Made by a program: the position numbers and the translations under genes. From Myxococcales bacterium (GTDB lineage: Bacteria; Myxococcota_A; UBA9160; UBA4427), in contig DUCT01000020.1 in the NCBI GenBank assembly GCA_012959665.1, positions 1 through 44,085 on the forward strand: a stretch of 44,085 nt of DNA, written 5' to 3'. The notes beneath the pieces are model-generated. The model worked only from the letters and a program-made list of their open reading frames with translations, did not search any database and was not told the origin of the DNA. Shown in pieces: positions 9,068-14,824 of the stretch. Within the stretch, counting starts at the first letter, position 1. The number at the start of each line of letters is the position of its first letter.

Positions 9068-9727
9068 TCAGCGCGGCAACAGCAACTTGCGTGCGCGATA
9101 GAGATTTGACTTGATCGCGTCCTCGGACTTCTTGAGCTTTGCAGCAATTTCGCTTATGGGGCGGTCGTCGATGTGGTGCAGGCGAAAGAGCATGCGCTGC
9201 TCATCGGTGAGTTTGTGGGCAGCGGAACTCATTTCCTCGATCCGCTCCTGGCACTCGTATTCCTCCAGCGGAGTGGGTCGAGTGCTGGCGTGGGCGGTGT
9301 TGCTCTCGGAGTTCTCTTCCATCAGAGGAACCGTAGGATGGCGCTTGCGCTTGAACCGGCTGGCGATCACTCGGCGAGTCACGCCGAAGATCCAGGCCGA
9401 GAACGGGGCTTCGCCCCGGTAGGAGTCCAGACAGGAGAAGACGGCGATAAACACCTCTTGGGTCGTCTCTTCCACATCGGCTCGAATGCCCATGCGTCGA
9501 TCGATAAAGCGGTATATGCGCTTGAAATACCGCTCGTAGAGGATCTCGAATGCTTCGCGATCGCCCTTGCGGACCTTGTCCACAATTTCTAGGTCGCTGC
9601 ATTCCTGCACGGGCTGATTGGCCGATGCCGGGCCCACTGGGCAGGCACTCGGTGCCGAGCTCTCGGTGGGCGCGTGTTGCGGAGCCCCACTGGGCTTCGT
9701 TTCGTTCCTGTTTGCCTGTTCTCGCAT
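9068..9727 (-). CDS. ECF-type RNA polymerase sigma factor
   Basis: Sigma region 2 'YERYFKRIYRFIDRRMGIRADVEETTQEVFIAVF...YRGEAPFSAWIFGVTRRV' and region 4 'LTDEQRMLFRLHHIDDRPISEIAAKLKKSEDAIKSNLYRARKLL'. Confidence 0.92.
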   Translation of the reverse strand: MREQANRNETKPSGAPQHAPTESSAPSACPVGPASANQPVQECSDLEIVDKVRKGDREAFEILYERYFKRIYRFIDRRMGIRADVEETTQEVFIAVFSCLDSYRGEAPFSAWIFGVTRRVIASRFKRKRHPTVPLMEENSESNTAHASTRPTPLEEYECQERIEEMSSAAHKLTDEQRMLFRLHHIDDRPISEIAAKLKKSEDAIKSNLYRARKLLLPR

Positions 9728-9939: not shown

Positions 9940-10542
9940 CTACTCGCCCAGGGATTCTTCGGTATCGGATTTGAGTCCGAGGTCGCTGTCTCTCAGATTG
10001 CTCCGGAAGGCGGGTAGTGGCGGGGCGGTCTCCGGTACGGTGAATTTCCTGACCGGGCCTTGTTGTCCCTCCGGGCTCGAAGGGCCTCTGGAGCCGACGG
10101 TTTCCAGTAGGAGGCCCGAATGGGGTCCAGCTCGCACAGCGGTGTACCGGACCAATTGGACGATGCCCGCGCGTAGGCTGCGGGATGCGGCTCTGGTTTC
10201 TGTCGCGAAGCTCGGGGCCAGCAGGATGGCTCGAACCGGTGTGTCTGGAGAGATTTTCAACTCGGGTGCGAGCTTGGCCCAGTCCCCCACGCGCGCTGCA
10301 ACCCATGCACGCTGGGCGAGGGAACGGGTTAAAAGCGCGGCATCACTTTCGCCCTCTAGGGCCAGCAGCATCAGGATCACGTCGCCGTGATCGTTGACCG
10401 TCACCAGATCGATGGGCGAGGCCAGTCCCATGATGTTTTCCGCGATTACGCGAAGTCCCGGATCCAGCTGGTGGAGTTGTGCCTTTACCCCTCTTCGTAG
10501 GTAGTCGATGGATAGGGGCTGGGTTTTTTGAATTTCGGTCAA
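9940..10542 (-). CDS. hypothetical protein, possible degenerate NucS/PD-(D/E)xK-like nuclease fold
   Basis: 200 aa; 'QLDPGLRVIAENIMGLASPIDLVTVNDHGDVILMLLALEGESDAALLTRSLAQRAWVAAR...PVRAILLAPSFATET'; start overlaps the end of the upstream gene (10539-10542). Confidence 0.6.
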   Translation of the reverse strand: MTEIQKTQPLSIDYLRRGVKAQLHQLDPGLRVIAENIMGLASPIDLVTVNDHGDVILMLLALEGESDAALLTRSLAQRAWVAARVGDWAKLAPELKISPDTPVRAILLAPSFATETRAASRSLRAGIVQLVRYTAVRAGPHSGLLLETVGSRGPSSPEGQQGPVRKFTVPETAPPLPAFRSNLRDSDLGLKSDTEESLGE

Positions 10543-11333
10543 GGCAGTCCCCGGAGCATGTCGGTCAGCAGGAGTTGGGCTACGTCGCGAAGAGCCCTTG
10601 CCGCGGGGGATTGGGGGTGGGCGAGGCCGATGGGCCTTTGGGCCACGATGGCTCGGTAGACATGCAGGGCGTCGACCAGAAGTCCGTAGCTCTGCACATC
10701 ATGTCCGAGGTTCTTGCGAGCGGCCTGGGCTATACGAGCGAAGGCCGTCTCGGCTTCCGCGCGGCACTCGGCGCCGTGGATTGTGATTCCCACTCGGGCC
10801 TGGGACTGCTTTTGCACGATGGCTCTGGCAGTTTTCAAGGTGTCCTGTAGGTCCGAGGTTTTGGACGAGGTGAAGAGCAGGGTCCAGCGAAGGAGCGCGC
10901 AATTCTTCCACCCGGCGTCGAGCCACGATGGCGGGATGCGGACAAAGATCAGCCCGCCTTCGGCTCCGCCACGCGCCCCCGCGGCGGCCTCTCGGGCAAT
11001 CTGATCGAGGCTCTTGAGATCCTTCGCCAAGGTTGGTCGAAACTCGACGCCCAGAGGGCCCGCACCGGCCTGGGGCCAGAGGGGAGAGGGGCTGACATCG
11101 TCGGGTGAGATGACCAAGGCGTCCCCCCCGAGGCGTGCCACCTCTACGGCGAGGTTCCACGTGAAAGCCGCGCGAACTACGTCCCGGTCGCCGATGGGAA
11201 CGCCGACGATTTGAGGCGGTGAGGGTTGCGAGGAAGGTCTCGGTTCTTTTTGGGCAAGCCTACCCTCGGGCGCGTCCGGCTTAGCCAGTTCGGGTCCGAA
11301 GTGATGAAGGACGTCGGCGAGGTTGCGAGGCAA
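10539..11333 (-). CDS. ParA/MinD-superfamily-like protein lacking a Walker A motif (pseudo-ATPase)
   Basis: 264 aa; 'IVGVPIGDRDVVRAAFTWNLAVEVARLGGDALVISPDD' aligns to the GKGGVGKT region of MinD/FlhG without the P-loop; C-terminal 'RPIGLAHPQSPAARALRDVAQLLL' resembles MinD/FlhG tails. Confidence 0.65.
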   Translation of the reverse strand: MPRNLADVLHHFGPELAKPDAPEGRLAQKEPRPSSQPSPPQIVGVPIGDRDVVRAAFTWNLAVEVARLGGDALVISPDDVSPSPLWPQAGAGPLGVEFRPTLAKDLKSLDQIAREAAAGARGGAEGGLIFVRIPPSWLDAGWKNCALLRWTLLFTSSKTSDLQDTLKTARAIVQKQSQARVGITIHGAECRAEAETAFARIAQAARKNLGHDVQSYGLLVDALHVYRAIVAQRPIGLAHPQSPAARALRDVAQLLLTDMLRGLP

Positions 11334-11342
11334 GCGCAGAGA

Positions 11343-12431
11343 CTAGCGGACGTGGAGAACTGAGTTGGTCTGTCCCATCGGTCCTGCTGAGCTGTTCTGA
11401 TTCGCTGGGTCAACCCTCCACTGGCCGTCTACGAAATAGCGGTATTGGTAGGTTCCGGGCGGCAAGCTCAGCACTTTGACCCATACCCGTGTTCGCCCCT
11501 CGGCTTCGACTCGGGAGAGGACGTTCCGGTCGGGCACCCAGTCGTTGAAGTCGCCGGCAATTCTCACGTCGCCGGCATCCGAGTCCCGGTATTCCACCAC
11601 GACCTCCCGCTTCTCTGGGTTGCTCGATTCCGCGTTATCGGCGGTGGTTGAGGCGACGACTTGTGGTCCACCCAAACTCACCTCCATGGCCAAGGCCGCG
11701 TAGTCCAGAGCGCCATTGGCCTTTGGCGCATATAGGCTGATGGGTTTGCCGTTTTGCGCGGCTTCGCGAATTTTTACGTTGAGTCGGACGACCGAGTCGA
11801 AGCACAGATCCCGGAAAAGCTCCCTGATTTCGCCCAGGGTTTCGCGGGCATAGCGTGTTCGCCCGTCGTAGAGAGTCGGCAGTACTCGAACCGAGAGGGA
11901 GTGCCCGACACGGTCCATCAGCAGGGAGATCGTCTCGAGGAGCTTTTGGACACCGTCAACGGCAAAGGAGCTGGTTTCCAGCGGTACGATGACTTCCTGG
12001 GAAGCCCTCAAAGCATTGAAAGTCAGGAGGCTGACTGCGGGTGGGCAGTCGATCAGGATGAAGTCGTAGTCGGGCTTGAGGGAATCCAGCGCCCGAGAGA
12101 GCCTCTCGGTGCGCGCCTCTTGGTGTTCTGCAGCGAGTTTCTGCTCAAGGGCCGAGAGCACGATTCCAGCAGGCGCAAGATCGACTCCGTGGGAGACATT
12201 GAGGATGATTCGGCTGAGTGCGGTCGCTCCGGCGGGTTCGACGAGAACCTCGTAAAGATTCTCGTCGAGTTCGTCCGGGTTTATGCCGAGCGCAAGGCTT
12301 GCGTGGGCCTGGGGATCCATGTCAACCACCAGAACAGAGAAGCCGTCTGCCGCCAAAGCACCGGCAAGGTTCACCGTCGTCGTGGTTTTCCCGCAGCCCC
12401 CTTTTTGGTTGACGATGCTGATCGTTCGCAT
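11343..12431 (-). CDS. ParA-family ATPase fused to C-terminal AMPK-beta/CBM48-type glycogen-binding domain
   Basis: Deviant Walker A 'NQKGGCGKTTTTVNLAGALA', 'VVDMDPQAHA', Walker B 'FILIDCPP'; C-terminal 'VRIAGDFNDWVPD...VWVKVLSLPPGTYQYRYFVDGQWRVDPANQNSSAGPMGQTNSVLHV'. Confidence 0.92.
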   Translation of the reverse strand: MRTISIVNQKGGCGKTTTTVNLAGALAADGFSVLVVDMDPQAHASLALGINPDELDENLYEVLVEPAGATALSRIILNVSHGVDLAPAGIVLSALEQKLAAEHQEARTERLSRALDSLKPDYDFILIDCPPAVSLLTFNALRASQEVIVPLETSSFAVDGVQKLLETISLLMDRVGHSLSVRVLPTLYDGRTRYARETLGEIRELFRDLCFDSVVRLNVKIREAAQNGKPISLYAPKANGALDYAALAMEVSLGGPQVVASTTADNAESSNPEKREVVVEYRDSDAGDVRIAGDFNDWVPDRNVLSRVEAEGRTRVWVKVLSLPPGTYQYRYFVDGQWRVDPANQNSSAGPMGQTNSVLHVR

Positions 12432-12618
12432 AGCGCATCCCCCGATTACTCGAGAACTTTTAGGCATCTGGCGTGCTGTCGATTCGGTCCAATTTACTTT
12501 TTGCTCGACATGTGCAGGGAAGTGTCCATCCCTTTTCCATTCTTAGGTCCAAAGTGCTAGAGGAATTCACCGCAGTGGTCACTTTTTCATTCGGGTCGGA
12601 GACCTTTCCCCAAGAGTT

Positions 12619-13188
12619 TCAAGCCCCTTTCAATGAGCGCTTGTTTTGCTCGGCTGACGTTGCTCGCTTTACGCTCCGAGGGACGTGTAGTGCGCGCCAT
12701 GCATCGAGTTCGCGCCGAAAGTCACCCACTCGAAATATCCACTCACCTCCCCGAATGGCACGAACATCGCTGCCCTCGCTGAGGACCAACAGCACATCCC
12801 CTGTGGCCACGAGGGTTATTTCTCGGGACCTCCACGCGACTTCCGGGAGAATTTCTCGTAGGGCCTGAATGCTGCTCCGGATTCGCTGGACTGAAACCCC
12901 GGCGTCGATCAAGCGCTTGGCGGCCTTGAGCGCAATCAGGTCCTCGAAGGTGTACCTGTGGTGCCCCCCTTGCGTCCTGATAGAAGGTCGCACCAGATTG
13001 GTCTGCGCCCAGTACTGCAACTGGCGCCGGGAAATGGCAAGCAGTTGCAGCACGTCCCGGGTCCTGAAAATTGCCGGGTCCAAGGGGTCGCTTTCAGGCT
13101 GCACTGGAGATTTGGGCAGTGAAGGCTGTTTCGCGCGATTCTGCCACGCGTCGTATCGCGCTCTAGTAGAACGACCTGCGGAACTCAA
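12619..13188 (-). CDS. MerR-family transcriptional regulator
   Basis: 'FRTRDVLQLLAISRRQLQYWAQTNLVRPSIRTQGGHHRYTFEDLIALKAAKRLIDAGVSVQRIR' HTH. Confidence 0.88.
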   Translation of the reverse strand: MSSAGRSTRARYDAWQNRAKQPSLPKSPVQPESDPLDPAIFRTRDVLQLLAISRRQLQYWAQTNLVRPSIRTQGGHHRYTFEDLIALKAAKRLIDAGVSVQRIRSSIQALREILPEVAWRSREITLVATGDVLLVLSEGSDVRAIRGGEWIFRVGDFRRELDAWRALHVPRSVKRATSAEQNKRSLKGA

Positions 13189-13429: not shown

Positions 13430-14824
13430 GTGACGGGCCAATCATCGGTGGTGGGCCTTATCGCCCCCACGCCATCGACTGGCCCATTGACTGGCCAATC
13501 GGATCACGTGTCGTTGAGTGCCAGCGGGTACCGCGCTTGGTTTGAGCTGGGACAAGAGGGAGCATTTTTGCCAGGCCCCAAGGCGGTTACTGATTCTGGG
13601 ATCGATGCGACGACCGAGGGTGCCGACTCGACGAAAGAGTTGCGTCGCGAATTGGCTTCGATGAACTCTGAGCAAGCCGAATCAAGGGTTCTGGTCGTGG
13701 AGGGCTCGGGGGTTGCCCGTCCCTATATGCGGGGGATCATGGTCCATGCCCTGATGGCGAAGGGAGTCAGCTTTGACGATGCCTATTCTGCAGCCCAGAC
13801 AGTGGCGGCACAGATTGAAGGCCGCGGAACAGTGGAGCGAGTCGAGTTGAGCAAAATCGTCAAGGAGATCTTGGGCGACGCCCCTGAAAACGAGCCACCC
13901 ATTCCACTGCCCACCGCGATACGAGTTGTGGGTAATCGGGGGAGTACCCATTTCTCAAAGGGCACTTTGTCCCAGAGTTTGCTGGCGGCTTCCCTGGTGC
14001 CCGATGATGCGTTTGAGGTCGCTCGTCAAATTGAAACGGGGTTGATCCTTCAGGGGCGAGATGAGGTCTCCCAGGCCGACTTGCGAGAACTGGCCTTCGA
14101 CGCGCTGCTGGATCGCTTTGGCGAACGCGTGGCCGAGCGCTACTTGGTCTGGCGGGAGTTCGAGGAGCCCGACAAGCCTGTGATAATTCTGCTTGGTGGG
14201 ACGGCGGGTGTGGGCAAGACCTCATTGGCGTTGGCTGTTGCTCAGCGCCTGGGTGTCAGCCGAATGCTTTCGACGGACTCGATTCGTCACATTATGCGAA
14301 TCATGCTGTCCGCTGACTTGGTTCCGGCGATCCATGTCTCTTCTTTTGACGCCTACCGTGAACTGCCGGCGCTGGGCCACGAGGACGATCCCGTGATTGA
14401 CGGGTTTCTTTCCCAGGCGACAACCGTTTCGGTGGGGGTACGCGCGATGATCGATCGCGCCATCGAGGAGAATACCAGTCTAGTGCTCGACGGAGTTGCC
14501 TTGGTGCCAGGTTTGATCGACCTGACGGAATACGCCGATCGGGCTCACGTTTTCTTTCTCATGGTTGGACTCCTGGATGAGAAAGCTTTCGAGAGCCAAT
14601 TTGAAGCGCGTGCACAACGACAGCGGGCACGGAACGCGGCGCGCTACGTGGAGCGACTCGAAGAAATCCTCAAGATCCAACAGTACCTTCTGGAGCAGGC
14701 GGATCGAAACAATGTGCCAATCGTCGACAATGTCACTGTCGATGGCTCTGCTCTCCTCGTGATCCGGCACGTGGTTGATTCTCTGCGTATCGATTGCGGA
14801 ATCGACTTCGCCAAGCGACTCTAA
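13430..14824 (+). CDS. 2-phosphoglycerate kinase-like protein with N-terminal ATP-cone-like domains
   Basis: P-loop 'PVIILLGGTAGVGKTSLALAVAQRLGVSRMLSTDSIRHIMR'; two preceding ATP-cone-like segments; start codon position uncertain. Confidence 0.83.
   Translation: MTGQSSVVGLIAPTPSTGPLTGQSDHVSLSASGYRAWFELGQEGAFLPGPKAVTDSGIDATTEGADSTKELRRELASMNSEQAESRVLVVEGSGVARPYMRGIMVHALMAKGVSFDDAYSAAQTVAAQIEGRGTVERVELSKIVKEILGDAPENEPPIPLPTAIRVVGNRGSTHFSKGTLSQSLLAASLVPDDAFEVARQIETGLILQGRDEVSQADLRELAFDALLDRFGERVAERYLVWREFEEPDKPVIILLGGTAGVGKTSLALAVAQRLGVSRMLSTDSIRHIMRIMLSADLVPAIHVSSFDAYRELPALGHEDDPVIDGFLSQATTVSVGVRAMIDRAIEENTSLVLDGVALVPGLIDLTEYADRAHVFFLMVGLLDEKAFESQFEARAQRQRARNAARYVERLEEILKIQQYLLEQADRNNVPIVDNVTVDGSALLVIRHVVDSLRIDCGIDFAKRL

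Follow-up and report, generated by a model that had tools for sequence, protein, structure and literature searches.

A probable pseudo-FlhG with a ParB-like N-terminal peptide encoded beside a CBM48-bearing ParA

Genes at the locus and their conservation

The window, by which we mean the whole stretch of 44,085 nucleotides that was analyzed (contig DUCT01000020.1 of assembly GCA_012959665.1, from a Myxococcales bacterium of the GTDB lineage Bacteria; Myxococcota_A; UBA9160; UBA4427), is part of a draft genome of 3.57 Mb. The gene of main concern, here named pFlhG for pseudo-FlhG, lies on the minus strand at 10539..11333 and encodes 264 amino acids, with the stop codon within these coordinates and a TTG start that is supported by the first alignment column, in which each of 60 orthologues has M, V, or L. 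It begins after a gap of 9 bp from the stop codon of ParA-CBM48 (11343..12467, minus strand), an active-looking ParA (NQKGGCGKTTTT, with the catalytic Asp kept) and the proposed motor of the system, which carries a C-terminal AMPK-type CBM recognized by domain search (AMPK1_CBM/CBM48, 11346..11603, minus strand). At its other end, the pFlhG reading frame overlaps by 4 bp with that of a third gene, P3 (9940..10542, minus strand). An ECF sigma factor gene follows 3' of P3 after a 212-bp gap (9068..9727, minus strand), and a gene for a MerR-type regulator, often but not always detected and given as context only, lies upstream of ParA-CBM48 (12619..13188, minus strand).

A pFlhG protein was matched in 73 of 91 genomes of the class, whose members are uncultured bacteria, a few of these being weak matches to true MinD/FlhG-type proteins. 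A phylum-wide profile search confined the family to the class, the matches outside it being C-terminal only and to ordinary MinD/FlhG-type proteins, and no plasmid relatives were found. ParA-CBM48, at E < 1e-100, is also class restricted. Throughout the class, in two taxonomic orders, pFlhG adjoins ParA-CBM48 on its downstream side. The gene order widely kept in the window's own taxonomic order is kinase-like, MerR, ParA-CBM48, pFlhG, P3, ECF sigma, DsbA-like, and PGM (phosphoglucomutase/phosphomannomutase), while in the second order ParA-CBM48 and pFlhG are kept and none of the P3, ECF sigma, and MerR neighbors was detected. The literature searched held nothing relevant on a pseudo-ParA or on ParA-CBM48.

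Two side observations concern the neighborhood. In most loci whose flanks are long enough, a conserved divergent gene borders the ParA-CBM48 operon; in the window it lies at 13430-14824 (plus strand) and encodes an ATP-cone domain and a P-loop-like GGTAGVGKTS. A public metagenome-assembled genome titled Spirochaeta sp. MED672 (L011) has the same gene order and a copy whose protein has a score equal to that of the copy in a genome of the class (G061), and its title is probably wrong.

The FlhG-type fold and the lost ATP site

Used as a single query, the pFlhG protein gave only a weak match to TIGR01969 (E 0.005) and no significant family in a Pfam search, and a family profile was therefore needed. 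A profile of 56 sequences matched FlhG (4rz2, E 8.6e-15), FleN (8p53, E 3.5e-14; 5j1j, E 4.3e-14), and MinD (1hyq, E 8.8e-9) in the PDB, in all cases through the C-terminal half, where the FlhG/FleN/MinD homology is recognizable (residues 147-258; 10560..10895, minus strand). Aligned by hhalign against FlhG of the same class, the pFlhG family gave an E value of 9.2e-17 over 221 columns (controls: 0.05 for the reversed and 0.69 for the column-shuffled alignment), compared to 0.16 against Soj, 0.09 against ParA-CBM48, and 0.0075 over only 40 columns against Mrp-like proteins. An AlphaFold2 model built from four sequences (pTM 0.77, with low confidence for residues 1-35) had FlhG, FleN, MinD, and Soj as its nearest PDB folds, and Foldseek matched it to FlhG with an E value of 7e-12. 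An origin of pFlhG as a duplicate of the neighboring ParA was considered and rejected. Since the profile comparison favors FlhG over both Soj and ParA-CBM48, pFlhG is very likely, indeed close to certainly, a degenerate MinD-fold protein of the FlhG/FleN type.

The ATP site of this fold has been replaced in pFlhG. In alignments with MinD/FlhG, the stretch 'IVGVPIGDRDVVRAAFTWNLAVEVARLGG' falls on the P-loop region, with GDRDVVRA in place of GKGGVGKT, and no intact Walker A motif (GxxxxGK[ST] or the deviant GKGGVGK[ST]) was found anywhere in the orthologues examined. Where the Walker lysine would stand, 53 of 60 orthologues have Arg and none has Lys, and the position of the Walker B/switch II Asp is mostly R, then C, A, and H, with no Asp listed, so that by sequence alignment all of the ATP-binding and hydrolysis motifs are replaced. 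It is likely that pFlhG is a pseudo-ATPase that does not bind ATP, an inference from motif loss and not from biochemistry.

The former P-loop segment (residues 42-69; 11127..11210, minus strand) has nevertheless remained highly conserved, and having lost the ATP motifs it appears to be under a strong new constraint. Its consensus is P[IL]G-x-R-D-V-V-R-A-A-x-x-W-N-L, with Pro46, Asp51, and Trp59 each at 97% and Asn60 at 92%, and its mean majority-residue identity (0.71) is higher than that of the C-terminal half (0.63) or the middle of the protein (0.48). Because the segment is among the best-conserved parts of pFlhG, it has likely been repurposed more than it has decayed, although this is inferred from sequence alone.

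Compared to the MinD-like flagellar ATPases FlhG/FleN/YlxH, pFlhG has fold and sequence homology in common, strongest in the C-terminal half, but lacks Walker A and the Walker B Asp, has a different N-terminal motif, and in our neighborhood comparison is not encoded with flhF or flagellar genes; full-length FlhF is also missing from most pFlhG carriers. FlhG has a C-terminal membrane-targeting helix; the pFlhG model stops at the last core helix, with no C-terminal extension. TadZ/CpaE proteins are MinD-like with an atypical Walker A and, by analogy, likewise represent a MinD fold outside division with an altered ATP site, but they are pilus associated and carry a receiver-like domain.

A preliminary description, made without database searches, had taken the open reading frame at 10539-11333 for a ParA-fold protein without ATP binding, colinear with an active ParA. 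The frame is a real, conserved gene on the minus strand, and the colinearity holds across the class, the activity of this ParA being inferred from its sequence. The likeness of the C terminus to MinD/FlhG tails was borne out by profile and hhalign comparison as the strongest part of the resemblance, and structure prediction gave a MinD/FlhG fold and not the non-P-loop fold that would have refuted the proposal; "ParA-fold" can be refined to the FlhG/FleN branch. The replacement of GKGGVGKT was upheld by alignment, with no orthologue examined keeping a Walker A there or elsewhere in the protein. The claimed loss of ATP binding stands as a motif loss conserved across the class, ATP binding itself being a matter of inference.

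The N-terminal peptide, the ParA pocket, and P3

Residues 1-15 of pFlhG (11289..11333, minus strand) form a conserved peptide that we propose as a ParA-binding motif, by inference and without binding data. Its consensus is [MVL][PA]R-x-L-x-D-V-L-H-Y-F-x-P (mean identity of 0.75 over residues 1-14; R3 98%, L5 98%, D7 93%, V8 97%), and it is followed by a variable linker predicted to be disordered (residues 16-40; 11214..11288, minus strand) that ranges from 10 to 88 residues across orthologues. Myxococcus xanthus ParB requires L11, L15, L18, and I19 to bind ParA and R13 to stimulate the ATPase (PMC12462528). The pFlhG peptide fits this ParB pattern, phi-x-R-x-phi-x-x-phi-phi, at the level of a sequence pattern only: when Arg3 is set on R13, Met1, Leu5, Val8, and Leu9 fall on L11, L15, L18, and I19, respectively. 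In ParBs of the class the motif is LGRGLGALI, and the sequence RGLGDVL occurs in some of the distant pFlhG peptides. As a rough background, the pattern occurred near the N terminus in 2 of 519 other long open reading frames, and in 73 of 76 loci, some of which are duplicates of one genome, the motif is no more than 250 bp away from the stop codon of ParA-CBM48. The three exceptions are L068 and L072, with an eroded motif, and L103, where the gene is absent; in L108 the motif is partly eroded. A caveat is that the resemblance to ParB rests on a short motif.

Both pFlhG and ParB (Spo0J) thus carry this peptide on a disordered tail and adjoin a Soj-type ParA, and the hydrophobic pocket is largely kept in ParA-CBM48. 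In contrast to ParB, pFlhG has a dead FlhG fold as its body; searches with pFlhG gave no match to the ParB family, and since the fold is that of FlhG, there are no ParB/CTPase or parS-binding domains. Known partner proteins of ParA/MinD ATPases have a charged, disordered N terminus (PMC10241942), and pFlhG resembles McdB and similar partners described there in this respect, in being an operon neighbor, and, by inference, in having a cargo-facing body, but the body of pFlhG is a pseudo-ATPase from the superfamily to which the motor itself belongs.

The ParB pocket was mapped onto ParA-CBM48 with structure 8ray, which we take to be M. xanthus ParA on the basis of the D60A change that it carries and of the residue numbers used in PMC12462528. 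Positions 150, 152, 155, 187, and 192 are hydrophobic in ParA-CBM48, and most of these proteins also retain Tyr81 and Glu82. But relative to M. xanthus ParA, D110 has become V, I, or A, V116 has become Q (66 of 69 proteins), and E117 has become K or R (68 of 69). Two of the four acidic or aromatic residues around the ParB Arg are lost. All eight of the chromosomal Soj proteins of the class that were examined have D at 110, I or V at 116, and E at 117. The altered pocket, with Lys or Arg at 117, and the new Asp7 of the peptide (93%), a further difference from ParB, could represent a separate specificity code, although this is an inference.

The pocket also changes where the peptide does. In the three loci with an eroded motif (L068, L072, and L108), V150 and F155, both within the ParB-binding pocket, are the only ParA-CBM48 positions of ≥90% conservation that are changed in all three, and the Fisher P values for the pocket are 0.0003 (L068), 0.002 (L072), and 0.006 (L108), uncorrected for phylogeny. 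This co-variation amounts to two independent events, as L068 and L072 share one genus, and the pocket varies in some motif-bearing genomes as well (Y81F in L019, L021, L066, and L112). Separately, L103 (G087) lacks both pFlhG and P3, and its ParA-CBM48 is interrupted in frame by a stop codon close to where the CBM ends, which might be either a coupled loss or an assembly error.

P3 had no Pfam or PDB match by sequence, and its relationship comes from a fold search only: a model predicted from two sequences (pTM 0.60) was matched by Foldseek to EndoMS/NucS (5gke, E 1.7e-4). P3 would thus share the PD-(D/E)XK fold with EndoMS/NucS nucleases but keeps only the Asp of the catalytic residues (Asp45, conserved), the E-x-K positions being hydrophobic. 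With E-x-K lost, it is probably a dead nuclease, and we regard a pseudo-nuclease of the EndoMS/NucS fold as likely on the basis of the model. The C-terminal tail of P3, FR[ST]-x-L-x-x-x-DL (9973..10008, minus strand), is near invariant, being present in 53 of 54 P3 proteins, with the lone exception truncated by a contig end.

In two genomes of one genus (G084 and G085), the gene after ParA-CBM48 keeps the N-terminal motif and continues directly into a P3 domain, without the FlhG body (L105:963-1499 and L106:997-1494; P3 profile E values of 4.5e-32 and 6.3e-9, respectively). The P3 tail is missing from both of these motif-P3 fusions. Its absence where the pFlhG body is lost suggests that the tail binds this body, which two genomes of a single genus can only raise as a possibility.

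The adaptor model and its rivals

An FlhG-type fold, a conserved loss of the ATP motifs, a conserved operon, a conserved ParB-matching peptide, retention of this peptide in genes that have lost the body, and its co-variation with the ParA pocket are all shown here. The combination of a ParB-like N-terminal tag with a lost ATP site indicates that pFlhG is probably an adaptor and not a second motor. We consider it likely that pFlhG is a pseudo-ATPase adaptor, a ParB/McdB-like partner that acts on ParA-CBM48 through the ParB-like peptide, although there are no binding or activity data. In this model, a ParA-CBM48 dimer with ATP would bind the nucleoid, and pFlhG would do for it what ParB, McdB, or MinE does for the motor of other ParA/MinD systems. 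Its N-terminal peptide would grip ParA-CBM48, both physical binding and ATPase stimulation being inferred, while the FlhG-like body, without ATP binding, would serve as a nucleotide-independent scaffold that holds the cargo; for most of the class, P3 would connect the two, a link that is likewise inferred. The preliminary description had left a heterodimer partner and an adaptor as alternatives, and the ParB-like peptide and the pocket co-variation favor the adaptor, with binding still inferred.

A bolder reading, toward which we lean slightly less than away from, is an intracellular positioning system, present across the class, in which only the motor is live and two enzymes are dead. It would comprise a carbohydrate-binding ParA, a pseudo-FlhG whose ParB-like tag grips this ParA, and a pseudo-EndoMS (P3) that is held by its C-terminal tail and forms a cargo-side module, perhaps one that binds DNA. 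If this were true, a member of the MinD family would have changed from a motor into the partner of a motor. Many ATPases of the ParA/MinD type are orphans, since partners of such diversity escape recognition by sequence (PMC10241942); the partner in the present case appears to come from the superfamily of the motor itself, as a dead member. With the ParB-like tag, the coding of partner specificity can be tested directly, Asp7/Lys117 contrasting in the same cell with the Ala/Glu pair of the chromosomal ParAB, and the peptide provides a signature with which further hidden partners could be sought.

The first rival is a heterodimer, in which pFlhG and one subunit of ParA-CBM48 would join at the P-loop face to give one dead and one live ATP site. 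MinD/ParA proteins dimerize over nucleotide, and the two proteins share the MinD/ParA fold and one operon. However, pFlhG belongs to the FlhG branch and has no profile similarity to ParA-CBM48 by hhalign, it retains none of the P-loop, lysine, and Walker B residues, G084 and G085 miss the dimerizing body yet keep the peptide, and known A/D ATPases are described as homodimer restricted (PMC10241942). We find this alternative unlikely.

Also unlikely is an anti-activator or sigma regulator that binds the ECF sigma factor or MerR as FleN does FleQ, with ParA-CBM48 controlling release. FleN, FleQ-FleN complexes included, is among the nearest solved relatives of pFlhG, most loci have an ECF sigma gene after and often a MerR gene before, and FliA is treated as a partner of Halothiobacillus neapolitanus FlhG (PMC10241942). 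Against this, the second taxonomic order keeps ParA-CBM48 and pFlhG without a detectable ECF sigma or MerR gene, the gap between P3 and the ECF sigma gene suggests a separate transcription unit, and the ParB-like peptide is left unexplained.

A decaying FlhG paralogue without function is supported by the lost ATP site and by a body that is very divergent or lost in L102, L104, L105, L106, and L108 (few genera), but it is very unlikely and for the class as a whole is already refuted by the conservation of pFlhG in a fixed place over two orders, where some residues of the former P-loop segment and of the N-terminal peptide hardly vary, in genomes mostly without full-length FlhF.

Positioning of glycogen or storage granules, with the CBM binding glycogen and pFlhG bridging, is also very unlikely: the CBM keeps its GDFNxW and VDGxW motifs in 60 of 69 proteins and the PGM gene is nearby, but GlgA was found in 13 and GlgB in 29 of the 91 class genomes, neither in the window's genus, and ParA-CBM48 is far more widespread than either.

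Glycogen, polyhydroxyalkanoate (PHA), and flagella were each rejected as a general cargo, as their marker genes are too sparse for the spread of ParA-CBM48; class I PHA synthase is nearly absent, with two below-cutoff cases in the class genomes, and full-length FlhF is present in about a quarter of them. Genes for glycogen synthesis are sparse in the very class across which ParA-CBM48 is widespread.
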